Positions 24,563-63,608 of a stretch of DNA of 64,000 bases are shown here, one piece after another. The notes beneath the pieces were generated by a model that was not told the DNA's origin, searched no databases, and saw only the letters and a program-made list of their open reading frames with translations. Source of the stretch: a virus; IMG/VR virus record IMGVR_UViG_3300024262_006558, positions 62,001 to 126,000 of that record, one strand, 5' to 3'. Every line of letters begins with the position of its first letter. The stretch's first letter is position 1. A program made the position numbers and the translations under genes.

Positions 24563-24624
24563 CGATAACAGAAAATAAAAGATAACTCTTCGAGTCGCTT
24601 AACGCTTATCTTTATTTTCGTGTT
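24563..24624 (-). repeat. attC-like inverted repeat, tandem with the next
   Basis: Sense arms begin ACACGAAAATAAAGATAA and end TTATCTTTTATTTTCTGTTA; each arm has an unpaired base, as in attC sites. About 58 of 59 positions match the plus-strand site at 60262-60321. It abuts the next repeat with no gene between, as if a cassette had been lost. Confidence 0.7.
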
Positions 24625-24682
24625 GTATGCCATTAAAACGGTACGCTCGTACCTCGCCATACAACATGGTATATAAAACATA
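24619..24682 (-). repeat. attC-like inverted repeat
   Basis: Sense TGTTGTATGGC pairs with GGCATACAACA around a loop containing GCGTACCGTTTTAAT. The same arms and loop occur in the plus-strand site at 59684-59750, with a short insertion here. It begins 7 nt after the stop of the 52-residue gene. Confidence 0.7.
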
Positions 24683-24688
24683 CACTCA

Positions 24689-24847
24689 CTACCACTTTTC
24701 TTCTTTAAGAATTATAGGGTCAAAGGCGTAACCTAAATACGCCTTATACAGTTCAGGTCTTATCCAACCCCTATGTTTAGTTTTTAACCAAATTCCTTTT
24801 TTTATACGCCTTATTATGCGTATTTCATTCCATATACTTGTTATCAT
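24689..24847 (-). CDS. Cassette ORF, 52-residue hypothetical protein
   Basis: A complete small gene, ATG at 24847 to TAG, beginning MITSIWNEIRIIRRIKKGIW. It is basic and aromatic, with no recognised family. The stop is followed by an attC-like repeat, as for the other genes of this array. The preceding sequence (24848-24890) carries a weak partial repeat. Confidence 0.5.
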   Translation of the reverse strand: MITSIWNEIRIIRRIKKGIWLKTKHRGWIRPELYKAYLGYAFDPIILKEEKW

Positions 24848-24890
24848 AATCCGTTCGTTTTACGTTTCATATACTTACCGTTGTAACACA

Positions 24891-25181
24891 TTAGCCAACT
24901 CTCGCTAAGTGCTTTCTAAAATCTTCGTTTTCCTTTTCCATAAATTCAGTAGCCTTTTGCATACATTCAATTAGGTTGTGGTTCTTGGTTTCTATTATTT
25001 CAGCAACTCCTTTCCATTGTCTTACTTCAGATGGGCTACCTTTGTCGCTTACATTTATGAAATAACCATCTTCATAGTCATACATAAAACAGATATTTCT
25101 TTCTTTTGCCAACGCTTCAAAACGTGTTACAACATTTTGTATAGTGCATGGCTTAATTTCGTTTTCTTTATTAGTGTTCAT
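24891..25181 (-). CDS. Cassette ORF, 96-residue hypothetical protein
   Basis: Begins MNTNKENEIKPCTIQNVV. It is predicted alpha-rich with a central beta segment (ICFMYDYEDGYFINVSDKGS). No family recognised. The 3' end abuts a partial inverted repeat containing TTACAACGGTAAGTATATG. No promoter of either class is evident. Confidence 0.6.
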   Translation of the reverse strand: MNTNKENEIKPCTIQNVVTRFEALAKERNICFMYDYEDGYFINVSDKGSPSEVRQWKGVAEIIETKNHNLIECMQKATEFMEKENEDFRKHLARVG

Positions 25182-25221
25182 CCTTATTTAAGTTTTTGGT
25201 CATTTATTTAATTAGCGGTTT

Positions 25222-25262
25222 CAAATCGCCACGACACCATACAAGATGCCGTTGTGTGTAAT
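25222..25262 (-). repeat. Partial attC-like site
   Basis: Sense TTACACACAACGGCATCTTG starts 2 nt after the stop of the gene at 25264. It closely matches the left half of the plus-strand site at 58935-59007 (AACGGCATCCTGTATGATGT), but its right arm is degenerate. Confidence 0.5.
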
Positions 25263-25504: not shown

Positions 25505-25606
25505 ACTACACACAACAATGTATATAGTTTATAAGCCTAATTAATATTATTTTTCAATTTGTAAATTTGTGCTATGGCTTACAAAACCATATACTCAACG
25601 TTATGC
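25505..25606 (-). repeat. Long attC-like inverted repeat
   Basis: About 100 nt. Sense GAGTATATGGTTTTGTAAGCC pairs imperfectly with GGCTTATAAACTATATAC around a 40-nt loop. The outer ends are GCATAACG and TTGTTGTGTGTAGTACGG. It begins 7 nt after the stop of the gene at 25613. Confidence 0.65.
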
Positions 25607-26732: not shown

Positions 26733-26790
26733 TAAAATATAACACGGTATAAAATGGCATTAAAACGCCATCTATACAACCGTTATATGC
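26733..26790 (-). repeat. attC-like inverted repeat
   Basis: Sense GCATATAACGGTTGTATAGA and ATGGC pair with GCCATTTTATACCGTGTTAT around the loop GTTTTAAT. It is the most regular site of this array. It begins 3 nt after the stop of the gene at 26793. Confidence 0.72.
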
Positions 26791-54976: not shown

Positions 54977-55348
54977 ATGAGAAAACTCTTCTACGTAAAT
55001 AATAGTGGATATAAAACGTCTCTTAATCAAACTCTCAGGCAAGCTGAAGAATCTGCCACAATTAATTACATAAGGGAGAAGTGCAGCGTTTTTATAGCTC
55101 AAATGATTGAATTAAATATAGAGTCGACATTTGGCCCAATGGAATTGCATAACTTTAATATAAGGTGTAGCAAATTTTTTAAGACTATTAATGTCCATGA
55201 TTTTGGTGTAGTATATGATGAGTCTATTTGGATGCCTCAAGACATACCAAGAAATATGTTAAGGGTAACAGTTCAATTAAGCAGTTATTTACATGCATAT
55301 GAGATGGACTTCTCTATATCTAATATTAAGAAAAAATACAATTTATGA
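54977..55348 (+). CDS. Hypothetical protein of glycan cluster
   Basis: 123 residues from ATG 54977 (MRKLFYVNNSGYKTSLNQTL); a GTG at 54968 adds three residues. It contains CSVFIAQMIELNIESTFGPM and VQLSSYLHAYEMDFS. Its stop overlaps the start of the next gene (TGA/ATG at 55345). The family is not recognised. Confidence 0.55.
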   Translation: MRKLFYVNNSGYKTSLNQTLRQAEESATINYIREKCSVFIAQMIELNIESTFGPMELHNFNIRCSKFFKTINVHDFGVVYDESIWMPQDIPRNMLRVTVQLSSYLHAYEMDFSISNIKKKYNL

Positions 55349-56277
55349 AAAGTAAAAGACCGACTAATACAATAATAGTAACTGGAGGCTCTGGGTTACT
55401 TGGAAAACATTTACGAGAAATATGGGATAATGATCACGTAATTTATATTTCATCTAAAGACTTTGATCTCACAAACGAGCAATCGGTTAGAACAATGTTT
55501 AAATTTTACCAACCAAAAGTTGTAGTTCATCTAGCGGCTCAAGTTGGAGGTATTATGGATAATTCTAAACATCCAGTTAAATACCTTAACAATAACATAA
55601 AGATGGATGCTAATGTGTTAAAGTGGGCTGAAGATTTCGGAGTCGAAAAAGTAATAGGCATGCTTAGTACATGTATATATCCTGATAATCTAAATGAAGA
55701 TCAATATCCTATGAAAGAGGAAGTGCTTCATGATGGACCTCCAGCTATAACAAATTTCTCATACGGATACGCCAAGCGATGCATGGCAGTTCAAATGGAG
55801 GCGTACAATAAAGAGTTTGGAACCAATTTTCAATGGATTGCTCCATGCAATCTTTATGGGGAGCATGATAATTTTGATCACGAACAAAAAGCTCACTTTA
55901 TTACAGCTTTAATCAAAAAGATTGATACTGCAGTAAAAAATGGAGATGATAATATTCAACTGTTCGGAACTGGGTCTCCATTGCGTCAATTTATGCATGC
56001 TGGAGATTTAGCTAAAATTATCATAGATTGTGTCGAAAATGATTATAATTTAAATATGAATGTTGCAGTCCCTTGGAATTACTCAATTAAGGATATGGCT
56101 GAAATAGCTCTTAAAGCTTGCGGGGCTGAGCATCTAAAGATAGAATTTGACCCATCTAAGCCAGATGGTCAATATAGAAAAGATGCATCAACTGAAAGGT
56201 TTAAAAAAACCTTCCCCGACTTTCAGTTTACCTCACTTGAAGAAGGTATAAAAAAGGTTTATCAAGCATTGCAATAA
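55345..56277 (+). CDS. GDP-L-fucose/colitose synthase (Fcl/ColC-like SDR)
   Basis: 310 residues. The NADP loop TGGSGLLG (13-20), VVHLAAQVGGIMDNSKHP, LSTCIYP (Ser and Cys of the epimerase site), YGYAK (Tyr-x3-Lys) and NLYGEHDNFDHE match GDP-4-keto-6-deoxymannose epimerase-reductases. PDGQYRKDAS resembles the GDP-binding end motif. With gmd the product is GDP-L-fucose; after a ColD step the same fold makes GDP-L-colitose. Which one applies cannot be settled from sequence. Confidence 0.82.
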   Translation: MKSKRPTNTIIVTGGSGLLGKHLREIWDNDHVIYISSKDFDLTNEQSVRTMFKFYQPKVVVHLAAQVGGIMDNSKHPVKYLNNNIKMDANVLKWAEDFGVEKVIGMLSTCIYPDNLNEDQYPMKEEVLHDGPPAITNFSYGYAKRCMAVQMEAYNKEFGTNFQWIAPCNLYGEHDNFDHEQKAHFITALIKKIDTAVKNGDDNIQLFGTGSPLRQFMHAGDLAKIIIDCVENDYNLNMNVAVPWNYSIKDMAEIALKACGAEHLKIEFDPSKPDGQYRKDASTERFKKTFPDFQFTSLEEGIKKVYQALQ

Positions 56278-57825: not shown

Positions 57826-57925
57826 TCTTATTTACATGCTGTTAATAAAACTAGGGCAACGTTTAACGTTTTCTAGTAGATTATAATATGCACTCTACCA
57901 TGTGCCCGACATCGGCAACATGGTT

Positions 57926-58058
57926 TTATGTTGAATTAAATAGGGGTGGGATTAAATGAACGTCTGCACTAGTCGAGTTGAAAATATACTTGCAAGTTGG
58001 TACTAAAGCCAACTATCCTAGCCAACGGGCTTTGCGGTTCACCCTATTTAATGTAACG
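57926..58058 (+). repeat. Long inverted repeat, attC-like, reversed polarity
   Basis: GTTGAATTAAATAGGGGTG pairs with CACCCTATTTAATGTAAC over a loop of about 95 nt. It starts with GTT and ends with AAC, the reverse of most sites here. The next site overlaps its right end. Confidence 0.5.
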
Positions 58059-58139
58059 CTTTGTGTATGGTTAGTAAACCCTTGCACAGACTTTCAAAAT
58101 TAGTATAAACCTTGGTGGGTTTATTACCTACAATGTTAA
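58053..58139 (+). repeat. attC-like inverted repeat before the first cassette gene
   Basis: TAACGCTTTGTGTATGGTTA and GTAAACCC pair with GGGTTTATTACCTACAATGT and TA; several bases are unpaired, mainly on the left arm. The loop holds about 38 nt. It ends 45 nt before the ATG at 58184. Confidence 0.62.
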
Positions 58140-58183
58140 ATGTATGCTTTGCTAGAGATTACGGACAGATAACCACTAAAACA

Positions 58184-58489
58184 ATGGACTTAAAAAAGAG
58201 AATAGAAGAAATTACACAAAACGGAACGCTTGAAAGCGGTGAACAAATAACCTATGTAGATACCGATGACCTTTACTTGTTGCTGAATGAAGTAAACTCT
58301 AGTGAAGTCATACATCTTGTTAGCGATTGGAATGATTGGGTATATGGATCACCTACATCAATAATAGATGGGAGTCATATTGAAGTTATGTGGTCTGACA
58401 ACTCAGTCACTAAAGTTTTTTATGAATGGAGAAGTAAATCTATGGCACATAAGTTACCACCAATAAAGTGGAGGTATTCTAATAGCTAA
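58184..58489 (+). CDS. Cassette ORF, 101-residue hypothetical protein
   Basis: Starts at ATG 58184 (MDLKKRIEEITQNGTLESGE); the earlier ATG at 58112 lies inside the inverted repeat. It is acidic, with DDLYLLLNEVNSSEVIHLVS and a Trp-rich C-terminus. The stop codon is the first base set of the next attC-like site. Function unknown. Confidence 0.6.
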   Translation: MDLKKRIEEITQNGTLESGEQITYVDTDDLYLLLNEVNSSEVIHLVSDWNDWVYGSPTSIIDGSHIEVMWSDNSVTKVFYEWRSKSMAHKLPPIKWRYSNS

Positions 58490-58550
58490 CGGTTTGGCTA
58501 TGTGCTGAACGTAGAGCAACGGAGTTTTGCATATAGCTAGTGTTATATGC
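58485..58550 (+). repeat. attC-like inverted repeat
   Basis: TAACGGTTTGGCTATGTGC pairs with GCATATAGCTAGTGTTA; G, TT and other bases stay unpaired. It overlaps the stop codon of the gene at 58184-58489. Confidence 0.7.
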
Positions 58551-58581
58551 TTTTAATTATTAACAACTAAAGATTATAAAA

Positions 58582-58932
58582 ATGAGTGAAACAGTACATT
58601 ACAGAGGGATTGCTACTAAAATTGAGCAACCAAACGACAAGACATTAATTGATGTCGCAAAAAGTATTTTAACAGAACGTAACAAAGAAATAGCCGACTA
58701 TTATGACAATGTAATAGAGTGTTTGTGTGATAGCTATTATAGAGAATTTTTCTACCATTCAAAAACACAGACCCTTTACAAATTAGACAATAATGAATAC
58801 GAGCCTGATGAAGATATAATAAGAGCAGAACCGAAAGAAAACGGGACTATTGAATATGAGTTAAGATATTATAACGGTGGTGCTGGATTTGATGAATGTA
58901 TGGAAGAGGCTTTTGATAAGCTCGATGCTTAA
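58582..58932 (+). CDS. Cassette ORF, 116-residue hypothetical protein
   Basis: MSETVHYRGIATKIEQPNDK opens it, with NVIECLCDSYYREFFYHSKT in the middle and YNGGAGFDECMEEAFDKLDA at the end. A complete, plausible soluble protein with no family that I recognise. The stop is 2 nt before the next repeat. Confidence 0.65.
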   Translation: MSETVHYRGIATKIEQPNDKTLIDVAKSILTERNKEIADYYDNVIECLCDSYYREFFYHSKTQTLYKLDNNEYEPDEDIIRAEPKENGTIEYELRYYNGGAGFDECMEEAFDKLDA

Positions 58933-58934
58933 TT

Positions 58935-59007
58935 GCATATAACGGCATCCTGTATGATGTCGTGAAACGAAGTGGAATGCATTCATACACCGTGTTGTGT
59001 GTAGTGC
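58935..59007 (+). repeat. attC-like inverted repeat
   Basis: GCATATAACGGCATCCTGTA with TGATGT pairs with TCATACACCGTGTTGTGTGT. Its left half matches the minus-strand half-site at 25222-25262. The trailing AGTGCGGATTA recurs after the next site, marking the cassette boundary. Confidence 0.7.
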
Positions 59008-59036
59008 GGATTATTAACTGATAACAAAATTAAAAG

Positions 59037-59216
59037 ATGAATGTATTTGATGAATTTTTAATGGAATCTGAAAAGGAACAATTAAAAGACAACCGACTGA
59101 AAGAACAGAAAGATAAAAAAGACTACTCGTATGAACACGATGGTAGAATAGAAACATGTGACGATTGTAGAACACCTATAAACTCACACGGACACTGCCC
59201 TAGATGCGATTACTAG
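59037..59216 (+). CDS. Cassette ORF, 59-residue Zn-ribbon protein
   Basis: MNVFDEFLMESEKEQLKDNR is followed by a charged helix and CDDCRTPINSHGHCPRCDY, a four-Cys ribbon at residues 41-57. The stop is directly followed by the short repeat at 59217. Function unknown. Confidence 0.58.
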   Translation: MNVFDEFLMESEKEQLKDNRLKEQKDKKDYSYEHDGRIETCDDCRTPINSHGHCPRCDY

Positions 59217-59250
59217 CATTACACACAACGGATGGTAATATGAATAGTGC
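59217..59250 (+). repeat. Short attC-like site
   Basis: CATTACACACAACGG matches the pairing arm of other sites (compare GTTGTGTGTAGTGC at 58993), but the right arm is nearly lost, ending TGAATAGTGCGGATTA. Probably a deleted site. Confidence 0.45.
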
Positions 59251-59267
59251 GGATTAAAAACATAAAA

Positions 59268-59435
59268 ATGGCAAAGACACGAGAACAAAAAAGAATTGAA
59301 AGTGCGGATAAAGTTTGTAGAGAACTTAGATACCAAATAGTTAAATATGGATTGATAGGTGATTGGGACGCATTAAATAAGCACTTTAATTCTTGGATGA
59401 ATAACGCTAAGAAATCTAAATACGACAGACCCTAG
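59268..59435 (+). CDS. Cassette ORF, 55-residue hypothetical protein
   Basis: Starts at ATG 59268 (MAKTREQKRIESADKVCREL) and ends AKKSKYDRP. Basic and helical. A GTG seven codons upstream lies in the repeat boundary and is not used. Function unknown. Confidence 0.55.
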   Translation: MAKTREQKRIESADKVCRELRYQIVKYGLIGDWDALNKHFNSWMNNAKKSKYDRP

Positions 59436-59436
59436 C

Positions 59437-59497
59437 ATTATTTATATTACGTGTTGTGCGCACGTTTTAATTGCGACACAACGCTAAGTATAACAAA
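59437..59497 (+). repeat. attC-like inverted repeat
   Basis: ACGTGTTGTGCGC pairs with GCGACACAACGC with one unpaired base; loop ACGTTTTAATT. It follows the stop by 1 nt. The outer bases (TTACG/CTAAG) are imperfect. Confidence 0.55.
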
Positions 59498-59514
59498 CGG
59501 AAAATTTACGACTT

Positions 59515-59673
59515 ATGAGATTTGAATTAATGCAATGGAAATGGTATAGGAAGTGGAAAGGTGGCTCTTATTACCTTATATGGAATTGGCTACCTATGAA
59601 CACTTTTTGGAGCGACAAACTTATTACAAGCTGTGGAGGCAGAGCCATTAAAGAGGAACACTACCCTAAGTAA
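59515..59673 (+). CDS. Cassette ORF, 52-residue hypothetical protein
   Basis: MRFELMQWKWYRKWKGGSYY is aromatic and basic, ending AIKEEHYPK. No family recognised. It lies between two attC-like sites and is in phase with them. Confidence 0.5.
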   Translation: MRFELMQWKWYRKWKGGSYYLIWNWLPMNTFWSDKLITSCGGRAIKEEHYPK

Positions 59674-59683
59674 ATTTTATGTT

Positions 59684-59750
59684 TTGTTATACAATGTTGT
59701 ATGGCAAAGCGTACCGTTTTAATGGCATACAACGGTTGAGTATAAACGTA
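59684..59750 (+). repeat. attC-like inverted repeat
   Basis: GTTATACAATGTTGTATGGC pairs with GGCATACAACGGTTGAGTAT (and AAC). The core matches the minus-strand site at 24619-24682, including GCGTACCGTTTTAATGGC. Confidence 0.68.
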
Positions 59751-59791
59751 GTGTTTAACTGAACTTAATTTGAAACACAAAACTTAAAATT

Positions 59792-59992
59792 ATGATAAAA
59801 AGATTGATTGAAAAACTGAAAACATTACGTTTATACTTTGTTAGAAAACGTTGTTTTGAGGTGTATTTCACAGATACCAAAAGTGGAAAGGAAGGAAGAA
59901 TTAATTTATGGGTGAAAGATGTCGATGAAGTAGAACCTTACTTTGAAAAACACTTTCCACATTTGGAATTATATGATATAGGAGAATGTTGA
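59792..59992 (+). CDS. Cassette ORF, 66-residue hypothetical protein
   Basis: MIKRLIEKLKTLRLYFVRKR is strongly basic and followed by FEVYFTDTKSGKEGRINLWV and an acidic end. No family recognised. The following repeat starts 11 nt after the stop. Confidence 0.58.
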   Translation: MIKRLIEKLKTLRLYFVRKRCFEVYFTDTKSGKEGRINLWVKDVDEVEPYFEKHFPHLELYDIGEC

Positions 59993-60002
59993 TTACAATG
60001 TT

Positions 60003-60066
60003 TTCTAACGACCTGTGTAAAATTTCGTGTGAGGCACGAGCAATGAATTTTAAACCTTGTTAGCGT
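60003..60066 (+). repeat. attC-like inverted repeat
   Basis: CTAACGACCTGTGTAAAATT pairs with AATTTTAAACCTTGTTAGCG, with an unpaired GA/CTGT set. It has the TAAC...GTTAG ends of classical integron recombination sites. Confidence 0.72.
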
Positions 60067-60102
60067 TTCGTTTTTGAGCGTTGGCATTTAAAAACTAAAA
60101 AG

Positions 60103-60264
60103 ATGAAAGTAAGTATTCAGTTCACAAAAGAAGAATTAAGATTATTAAAAAAGGCGTTATTTTTTGGAATAACACATAATGAAAACAACCAAGAAGCAAA
60201 TAAAATGAATGAATTAGATGCGAAAATGAATTTACTGTGTGCGTTGGCAGAAAATGAACGCTAA
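60103..60264 (+). CDS. Cassette ORF, 53-residue hypothetical protein
   Basis: MKVSIQFTKEELRLLKKALF is helical and ends LLCALAENER. The TAA stop is the first three bases of the following site, a feature often seen in integron cassettes. Function unknown. Confidence 0.6.
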   Translation: MKVSIQFTKEELRLLKKALFFGITHNENNQEANKMNELDAKMNLLCALAENER

Positions 60265-60328
60265 CACGAAAATAAAGATAAGCGTTAAGCGACTCAAAGA
60301 GTTATCTTTTATTTTCTGTTATAACGCG
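60259..60328 (+). repeat. Terminal attC-like inverted repeat
   Basis: TAACACGAAAATAAAGATAA pairs with TTATCTTTTATTTTCTGTTA, one extra C on the left and one extra T on the right arm. Nearly identical to the minus-strand site at 24563-24624. Confidence 0.75.
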
Positions 60329-60394: not shown

Positions 60395-61594
60395 ATGACG
60401 GAAGTAAAGATACCCTTAGTAAAAGACACTATATCACATGAGGATATGGATGCTCTTGCGGATTGGATTAAAACCTACCCTCGCCTTACGAAAGGCCCAG
60501 AAACAAATGAATTTGAAAAAGAGTGGTCTGAATGGCTAGGTACAAAGTATTCCGTATTTTGTAACTCTGGATCTTCAGCAAACCTTCTTATGCTTTACGC
60601 TCTTATCGTAGCGAAAAGACTTAACAATAAAAAAATAGTGGTACCAGCATTAGCTTGGGCTACGGATCTTGCTCCAGTAATGCAATTGGGTCTTGAGCCA
60701 ATTATATGCGATTGTAATGGTCAAAATCTCGCTGTAGACCTAAATGATTTAGAACGTATTTTCCAGAAAGACAACCCTTCAGCCCTTATGCTGGTATCGG
60801 TTCTTGGTATCCCTCCAAATATGGATGAGATAATTGTTCTTTGTAAAAAGTATGGAGTTATCCTTTTAGAGGATGCTTGTGAATCACTAGGTTCTGAATA
60901 CAAAGGCAATAAACTCGGAACTTTCGGATCCATGTCAACATTCTCACTATATTTCGGACACCATCTTTCAACTATTGAAGGTGGTATGGTATGCACTGAT
61001 GATGAAGAGCTTTATGAAATATTGAAATCTATTCGTTCTCATGGTTGGGACAGAGATGCTTCAGAAGAGTATCGTAAAAAGTGGAGAGATAAATGGGATG
61101 TGGATGATTTTAACGGCCTTTACACTTTCTACCACCCTGGATTCAATTTAAGAGCTACAGATTTACAAGCATTTATAGGTAGAAGGCAAATTAAAAAAGC
61201 TGATGAAGTTTCTAAAATCAGAGCTGCTAATTTTCAGAAATATCAAGAATTGATATCCGATCATTCTGCATGGAAACCTGAACCGCCAGAAGGCGCTTTT
61301 GTTTCCAATTTTTGTTACCCTGTACTGCACGCAAAGAGAAAAGAGATAGTAACAGATCTAATCGCTAATGGCGTTGAAACTAGACCTATGATATGTGGAT
61401 CTATGAGTACTCAACCATTTTATGTGGACAAATACGGCAGAAAAGAATTATACACCGCAAAGCAAATAGATGATTACGGATTCTACGTGCCTAATAATGA
61501 TAAAATGACTGATGAGGACATTCAAACCGTATGCAACATAATCAATAAGCATACTGTAAACCCTGAAGTAGAACCGCAAGAAAACAATCAATAA
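60395..61594 (+). CDS. GDP-4-keto-6-deoxymannose 3-dehydratase (ColD-like)
   Basis: 399 residues, DegT/DnrJ/EryC1-type PLP fold. [37 protein letters not shown] and [14 protein letters not shown] are its active-site segments. At the place where aminotransferases hold the PLP-binding lysine there is His189 (GHH). That replacement is the hallmark of ColD, which removes the 3-hydroxyl on the colitose pathway, and also of the RfbH/E1 dehydrases. The neighbouring gmd makes the substrate, favouring ColD. The stop is 1 nt before the gmd start. Confidence 0.78.
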
Positions 61595-61595
61595 A

Positions 61596-63608
61596 ATGAA
61601 AGAAGATAAAAAGAAAGCTCTCATTATAGGTATCACTGGAATGGATGGGTCTCACTTGTCTGAATTACTTTTAGATAAAGGATATGAAGTTCACGGGGTT
61701 ATTAGAAGACATTCTCATATAGGGGGAACTGGACGAATTGATCACATATTCGATGAATTGAAACTTCATTATGGAGACGTTACTGACGCTTTAAATATAT
61801 CTAGGTTAATTTCCGAAATACAACCCGATGAAATTTACAACCTATCAGCTCAGAGCCATGTAAAAGTTTCTTTTGAAGAACCTGGATATACAGCTCAAGT
61901 AGATGCAATTGGAACATTAAACGTAATGGAATCAGCTAGAATCCATTGTCCTAATGCGAAGATTTACCAAGCATCAACCTCTGAGATGTTTGGAGGTTTA
62001 GCTTACAATAGACCTGAAAATGGTTATACTGAAGAATCTCCATTTCACCCGCGATCACCTTATGGTGTCGCTAAGGTGTACGGTTTTTGGATAGTAAAAA
62101 ACTATAGAGAAGCATACAATATGCATGCTTCCAACGGTATATTATTCAATCATGAAGGTGAAAGACGTGGAGTAACTTTTGTTACTAGAAAAGTGACCAG
62201 AGCATTGGCGGCCATTAAGAAGGGTGAGCAAGATGTTTTGACTCTCGGTAACATGGATTCCTTAAGAGACTGGGGATATGCTAAAGAGTATTGTATAAAT
62301 TTAGATGTACCTATTTTGACAACTAGTGGATGGAAATTTTATGATGAAATTTCTGAAGGTGATCAAATAATTAATTTTAATTCTGAAGAAAATCACATAA
62401 CTACAGATACAGTTAAAAGCAAAATAGTAATTAAATCAAATGGTGAAAAAATTAAATTAACAGGCAGAGGAGTTTGTATAAACGTAACTCCAGATCATCG
62501 GATTTACTATCAGAAAAAAAGTAAAAAATCAAAAGGTGGATGGTCAAAATACAAAATTTGTACAGCTAAAGAATTTTATGATTTATTAAAAAATAAAGCG
62601 TACAGAACAAAGTATGACTATAGGCTGCCGCATTTTCAAGATTATGACAAAAAAGAAAATGAAAAATACTCAGATAACGAACTTTATTTAATAGGGGCTT
62701 TATTGGCGGAAGGTTGTCTATCTAATTCAAATCCTGGGAGAGGGTCTATAGTTTCCTTATCTCAATCTTTTATTAAAAATGAAAAAATTCACAAAAAATT
62801 ACAAAAAATAATAGATGATGAAAAACTTGAAGCTAGGTTATGCAATAAAAACAATGGTGTAACTGAATGGGTCTTTACAGCAGATAGTTCTAAAAAAATT
62901 ATTGAATATTTTGATGGATTTGATGTGCATGTGATGCCTAAAGATTTCTATAATTTAAGCAGTAGGCAATGTAAAATTGTATTTGACTCTTTAATGGATT
63001 GCGATGGATGTTGGGGATCATACACATACACTTCTAAACGTAATTTACTAGCATCTGATTTCCAAACTATAGCTCATCTTGCAGGATATAGAACTACGGG
63101 CGTAAAATTTGTAAATAACGTTTACATAACTAGTGTTATAACACGATCCAAAAAACATATGTATATACAAAATGTGGAATCATATAATGATAACAATGAT
63201 AAAGTTTGGTGTGTGAATAGCAATAATGGAACTATCATAACTAGAGATCAAAACTGCATTAATATAGTAGGTAATTGTGAAGGAATGTGGAGAATGTTGC
63301 AACAAGACACTCCTGATGACTATGTACTGGCAACTAACGAAACTCATACAGTAAGACAATTTGTAGAAGAAGCAGTTAGGTATTGCGGATGGGATATCGA
63401 GTGGAGAGGTGAGGGCGTAGATGAAAAAGGTTATGATAAGTCAACTGGTAAACTTCTCATCGAAATTAACCCTAAATATTATAGACCATCTGAAGTTGAT
63501 CTATTGTTAGGGGACGCTACCAAAGCAAAGGAGAAGATGGGTTGGGAACCTAAAACTAAATTTAAAGATCTAGTCAAATTAATGATGGAGCATGATCTGA
63601 AAGCTTAA
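61596..63608 (+). CDS. gmd: GDP-mannose 4,6-dehydratase interrupted by an intein
   Basis: 670 codons. The extein (342 residues once spliced) has the NADP loop GITGMDGSH (12-20), STSEMFGG (catalytic Thr/Ser-Glu region), YGVAK (Tyr-x3-Lys) and RDWGYAKEY, then [17 protein letters not shown], the family order for dehydratases that turn GDP-mannose into GDP-4-keto-6-deoxymannose. A 328-residue intein lies between Tyr232 and Cys561, in the strongly conserved cofactor-contact loop. Splicing is required for activity. The GMD product can feed both ColD and the Fcl-like enzyme at 55345. Confidence 0.9.
62292..63275 (+). mobile_element. Intein with LAGLIDADG homing endonuclease, within gmd
   Basis: Residues 233-560 of the precursor. 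Cys233 starts block A ([20 protein letters not shown]), NVTPDH (298-301 TPDH) is block [11 protein letters not shown] (366-374) and SLMDCDGCW (465-473) are the two LAGLIDADG motifs, and [20 protein letters not shown] with IVGN ends block F/G. Asn560 and the following Cys561 support splicing; the residue before Asn is Gly where His is usual, a variant seen in phage inteins. Both endonuclease motifs look intact. Confidence 0.88.

Follow-up and report, generated by a model that had tools for sequence, protein, structure and literature searches.

The cassette arrays described here very probably represent an integron-like system of Bacteroidota phages that is the mirror image of the classical integron. 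An integron-like function is well supported; membership among the integrons fails on the integrase. The sequences themselves show the units and where they end, the occurrence of the same units in different phages and, in related phages, an attI-like block and the association with a recombinase.

Cassette arrays and their sites

The window, that is, the whole stretch of 64,000 nucleotides that was analysed, comprises bases 62001-126000 of an IMG/VR virus record of 388,594 bases (388.6 kb). The presence of tail sheath and major head genes in the window indicates a contractile-tailed giant phage. The record carries three cassette arrays, two of them (A and B) inside the window and the third at about 242-249 kb of the record. 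Array A, on the plus strand, sits between nucleotide-sugar genes, and array B, on the minus strand at 24.6-27.1 kb, adjoins the tail sheath gene. The genes flanking array A lie at 55345-56277, 60395-61594 and 61596-63608 (epimerase, DegT-type aminotransferase, GDP-mannose dehydratase-like). A terminal palindrome is common to both arrays (60262-60321 and 24567-24624), and array B has two degenerate junctions with AAT in place of AAC. Rfam and tRNA scans of the window gave no match, and its cassette proteins had only sub-threshold matches in Pfam.

The first-pass annotation had described unidirectional short ORFs with imperfect inverted repeats between them. These were seen again, with YAAC...GTT ends, as were the two stop codons it had placed inside the site (58487-58489 and 60262-60264). 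The sites are attC-like, being imperfect inverted repeats with R''/L''/L'/R' arms and a GTT core. Two of the repeats (about 59436-59484 and about 59676-59733) and the half-sites of array B are incomplete. They are halves of bigger sites whose loop contains either the next start codon (A5, B3, B6) or, apparently, an entire gene (A3, A4, B7), the whole-gene loops having been read by eye. A scan for YAACG, a stem and GTT returned 9 sites in the window against 0.2 in shuffles, and 79 against 1 in all the loci gathered by then. A covariance model (R1), which was trained on 19 sites and has a built-in bias as three of them (A1, A2, B1) come from the window, gave eight window matches at E<0.04 (best 2.8e-11), every one within array A or B. 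Over the whole record it gave 12 matches in three clusters. The features are as follows.

58055..58137, plus strand: site A0, weak (AAC 58055-58057, GTT 58135-58137); R1 22.5 bits, E 0.038; precedes ORF 58133-58489; own-end pairing was looked for and none was seen
58488..58544, plus strand: site A1 (AAC 58488-58490, GTT 58542-58544); R1 48.6 bits; motif scan
58582..58932, plus strand: cassette ORF, 116 aa; cassette end AAC 58941-58943, complementary to R' at 58542
58941..58996, plus strand: site A2 (AAC 58941-58943, GTT 58994-58996); R1 65.8 bits
59037..59216, plus strand: cassette ORF, 59 aa; end AAC 59227-59229, complementary to R' at 58994
59227..59455, plus strand: putative site A3, whole ORF (59268-59435) in loop; from sequence reading; arms GGTAATATGAAT / ATTTATATTACG
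59480..59698, plus strand: putative site A4, whole ORF (59515-59673) in loop; from sequence reading; arms GTATAACAAA / TTTGTTATAC
59731..59842, plus strand: site A5, contains the start and first codons of ORF 59792-59992; motif scan; module recurs in other phages before differing protein bodies
59792..59992, plus strand: cassette ORF, 66 aa; cassette end AAC 60007-60009; entire cassette common to locus L052
60007..60061, plus strand: site A6 (AAC 60007-60009, GTT 60059-60061); R1 47.5 bits; near-identical in Maribacter phage Panino
60103..60264, plus strand: cassette ORF, 53 aa, the final one in array A; last AAC at 60263-60265, which is complementary to R' at 60059
60262..60321, plus strand: terminal palindrome of array A, common to array B
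26741..26784, minus strand: site B1 (AAC 26784-26782, GTT 26743-26741); R1 44.3 bits
26136..26247, minus strand: site B3, contains the start of ORF 26185-25961; R1 25.6 bits; motif scan
25514..25602, minus strand: site B5 (AAC 25602-25600, GTT 25516-25514); R1 45.4 bits; own-end pair 25516/25251; precedes ORF 25473-25264
25131..25253, minus strand: site B6, contains the start of ORF 25181-24891; R1 29 bits; own-end pair 25133/24880
24663..24882, minus strand: putative site B7, whole ORF (24847-24689) in loop; from sequence reading
24567..24624, minus strand: terminal palindrome of array B, common to array A

Two gene-less R'-to-R'' stretches of 30-38 bp with a GTTTTAAT loop were observed (59453-59482 and 59696-59733), downstream of the sites whose loop apparently contains an entire gene.

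Folding gave a mixed picture. Extrahelical bases, which had been proposed by analogy with classical attC, were not consistently seen. A strand bias does exist, the sense strand folding better than the antisense strand in 109 of 116 sites. Random segments of the same loci behave likewise (119 of 164), and the bias exceeds this control, itself biased, only partly. A folding gain in the circular form was dropped as evidence, because the partner arm had been chosen by complementarity. A Bacteroidota promoter box inside the sites was also set aside as weak (22 sites, with 13 expected).

Cassette ends and boundaries

Among 99 neighbouring site pairs from related arrays, 48% had complementarity of 8 nt or more between the two ends of the same cassette, compared to 3.4% for the two arms of one linear site and 4.0% at random. 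Pairing of the R arms extends over about 10-14 nt, and position 11 is almost always mismatched. Such own-end pairing is what an integron-type system predicts, since each cassette carries both arms; taken alone, it is compatible with a cut on either side of the site.

The boundaries come from cassettes shared between phages. Three full-cassette cases are available, all with AAC-to-AAC ends: L184 and L188 (100% over 315 bp), L195 and L199 (99.4% over 495 bp), and the window and L052 (93% over 281 bp). A block shared by L213 and L057 begins instead at GTT, which suggests that hairpin exchange also occurs. Directly after the variable arm and AAC of the last cassette, about 55 nt before the recombinase ATG, lies a conserved attI-like block (e.g., TACTATATGTAAAA). 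A strict pattern picked up this block in 58 of 75 loci, against a background of 1.8%, and in most of the remaining loci it can be seen by eye; the window has no attI-like block of this recombinase-locus type. L184 and L185 share a stretch of 1229 identical bp that begins at the attI AAC and runs through the recombinase; their last cassettes differ.

Taken together, the AAC-to-AAC cassettes and the attI-like block point to a cassette composed of site, gene and arm, in that order, with genes reading toward the block. Each site thus belongs to the gene downstream of it, contrary to the initial proposal that the site follows its gene. Nearly all cassettes (102 of 104) have a sense ORF and none has a longer antisense ORF. 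In cassettes whose gene begins downstream of GTT, the median distance is 43 nt; in 11 cassettes the start falls inside the site. As read from these boundaries, cassette genes are inverted relative to attI and the recombinase when compared with the classical integron. N-terminal swapping at GTT, our first reading of site A5, was abandoned as AAC boundaries fit better, although GTT exchange also occurs.

Two other explanations were weighed against these data. The complementary ends of 8-14 nt or more on each unit would suit small transposons or MITE-like units with terminal inverted repeats and one gene each. We consider this very unlikely: end sequences vary from unit to unit with only AAC and GTT constant, no transposase was seen, and the units form one-direction, head-to-tail arrays bordering on a conserved block that adjoins a tyrosine recombinase. 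It is also true that the hairpins fall between genes and that integrases are common in phages, as would be the case for ordinary transcription terminators between small phage genes and an unrelated lysogeny integrase nearby. Terminators do not predict own-end pairing, identical AAC-cut cassettes in different contexts, or a conserved block following a last cassette that varies. All three were found, which makes this explanation extremely improbable.

The recombinase of related phages

Recombinases near the sites in some phages served as queries and led to 80 viral loci. The covariance model detected 127 sites in these loci. Every one of the 127 lies on the strand of the recombinase gene, and only two are not upstream of that gene; loci lacking model-detected sites still have own-end pairs upstream of the recombinase. 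The enzyme, of about 267 aa, retains the catalytic residues of tyrosine recombinases. In alignment it lacks the insertion specific to IntI, which Bacteroidota IntI proteins have. It scores 135-157 bits with TIGR02249 (cut-off 265), and it groups in a clade of its own, separate from the IntI clade, which has full support. Its predicted structure (mean pLDDT 86) matched IntI4 best and then XerA; the Foldseek match to IntI4 (PDB 2A3V) had an E-value of 5.5e-15 at 26-27% identity, with TM-scores of only 0.5-0.6. The best named family is the XerA-like NF040815, the recombinase being under the cut-off of every such family, and the nearest relative in named phage records is only 37% identical.

No integrase had been seen in the window at first pass, and this now extends to the whole 388.6-kb record, where no match to PF00589, TIGR02249 or a relative of the recombinase was obtained. 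The layout of the record is thus CALIN-like (at least two attC-like sites with no IntI nearby), and the enzyme of this site family elsewhere is not IntI. The original reading as a cassette array holds for an integron-like array of single-ORF cassettes with foldable sites in a phage, and the system differs from it in the enzyme, which in related phages is not IntI.

Distribution in phages and Bacteroidota

With a 16-base motif and two site sequences as queries, dozens of viral contigs bearing the same sites were recovered, some of them 150-430 kb long. The sites are also present in the isolated Maribacter phage Panino and in a 462-kb huge-phage record, and a phage major capsid gene was found in 13 of 18 records tested, that of the window among them. 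A 115-base site that includes the start MIKRLIEKLKTLRLYF recurs in several phages with different protein bodies after it, the switch falling at GTTAG. The motif after R' had no 24-mer match in 84,980 genomes, compared to 21 viral contigs; as an 18-mer it had six matches in the genome scans, none with a convincing YAACG..GTT hairpin. This motif is phage-biased and the cassette system is not, because the R1 model later found arrays in hosts.

Most cassette genes in related phages are unrecognised. The recognisable cargo comprises DNA adenine methyltransferases, an RNA ligase and ADP-ribosyltransferase-like proteins. A common N-terminal leader like MELRKFIATTIREYLNE was noticed on differing bodies, some ADP-ribosyltransferase-like (L193:4412, L187:6660, L204:1016, L220:3945, L222:6813 and L189:7428); it is perhaps a virion-targeting leader. 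Relatives of the window ORFs 25864-25613 and 25473-25264 are encoded in phage records of 635 and 735 kb (L047:6000-6245 and L048:6006-6211), apparently with no adjoining sites, and cassette genes may accordingly come from phage genes.

On the host side, the recombinase family was found in 95 of 297 sampled Bacteroidota genomes. Host own-end pairs lie mostly 3' of the recombinase and point toward it (28, vs. 8 in the three remaining combinations of side and strand together, and 2 in shuffles), and in several loci the last AAC is 80-140 nt from the recombinase gene. Host chromosomes thus have the same design with the recombinase flipped.

It was initially suggested that the phage had taken classical attC cassettes from host IntI integrons and carries them as a CALIN. 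The site architecture and own-end complementarity are integron-like, and IntI over the curated cut-off is common in Bacteroidota (84 of the 297 genomes). In addition, Qi et al. (2023; PMC9892861) report that IntI1 recombined some phage sites, one of them from Polaribacter phage P12002L, a phage that carries five strong sites of the window's family, each directly before a gene. Against this origin, boundaries are at AAC with the site ahead of the gene, the arrays adjoin a non-IntI recombinase instead, and no R1 sites were detected near Bacteroidota IntI genes in 12 neighbourhoods (L075-L096). The data give no sign that the cassettes stem from host integrons, and two cassette proteins have relatives in the 635- and 735-kb phages, apparently with no sites there. 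We regard this origin as unlikely.

Proposed mechanism and implications

In the mirror-image system that we favor, a cassette extends from AAC to AAC and comprises a hairpin site, one short gene and a variable arm R'' that ends in AAC and is complementary to the R' arm (GTT N7) of its own cassette. Judging from its sequence footprint, the tyrosine recombinase may act on a folded strand of the site. Insertion of cassette circles would take place at the attI-like AAC and leave the genes reading in the direction of attI and the recombinase. The window phage would hold arrays of the system without the enzyme; these may be served by recombinases of co-infecting phages or of the host, or may no longer be mobile.

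It is somewhat more likely than not that this is a capture system separate from integrons and common to Bacteroidota chromosomes and phages, giants included, with an Xer-like recombinase devoid of the IntI domain, a site that is the gene's own leader, and genes reading toward the insertion point. If so, hairpin-based cassette capture works without the IntI-specific domain, and viruses own and carry a cassette-capture system. Which parts of an integrase are needed to use folded single-stranded sites becomes testable. There would also be a pool of phage cassettes whose enzyme is missed when searches rely on IntI.

Comparison with known systems

Phage site clusters were already known. Qi et al. 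(2023) describe attC-like clusters without integrase (CALINs) in phages, P12002L included, much like the arrays studied here. They are interpreted there as ordinary attC cassettes with no dedicated enzyme, and the text consulted does not describe the mirror layout, the attI-like block or the phage recombinase. In P12002L, one methyltransferase cassette has ends that are complementary over almost 30 nt. No report of a mirror layout or of a non-IntI recombinase was found in the literature covered, preprints and most subscription papers being outside that coverage.

With XerA/XerC/XerD-type recombinases and IntI4, the phage enzyme has catalytic residues and fold in common; it differs in its length of about 267 aa, in falling under the family cut-offs and in the modest TM-scores noted above.

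Likeness to classical integrons (IntI, attI and attC; class 1 and sedentary chromosomal) is found in the one-way single-gene cassettes, the R''/L''/L'/R' hairpins with GTT core, the mutually complementary cassette ends and an insertion site adjoining a tyrosine recombinase, the attI-like block being present in related phages and absent for the window arrays. The definition of an integron requires an IntI-type integrase with the additional IntI-specific domain (PMC9668308). By score, alignment and separate clade the phage recombinase is not of this type, lying outside the IntI clade without the IntI insertion, and the window record has no enzyme. In classical integrons the boundary is G|TT, attC is downstream of the gene and genes read away from attI. 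In contrast, the phage cassettes are bounded at AAC and have their site ahead of the gene, their genes face attI, and pairing of the R arms covers about 10-14 nt, position 11 being a constant mismatch.
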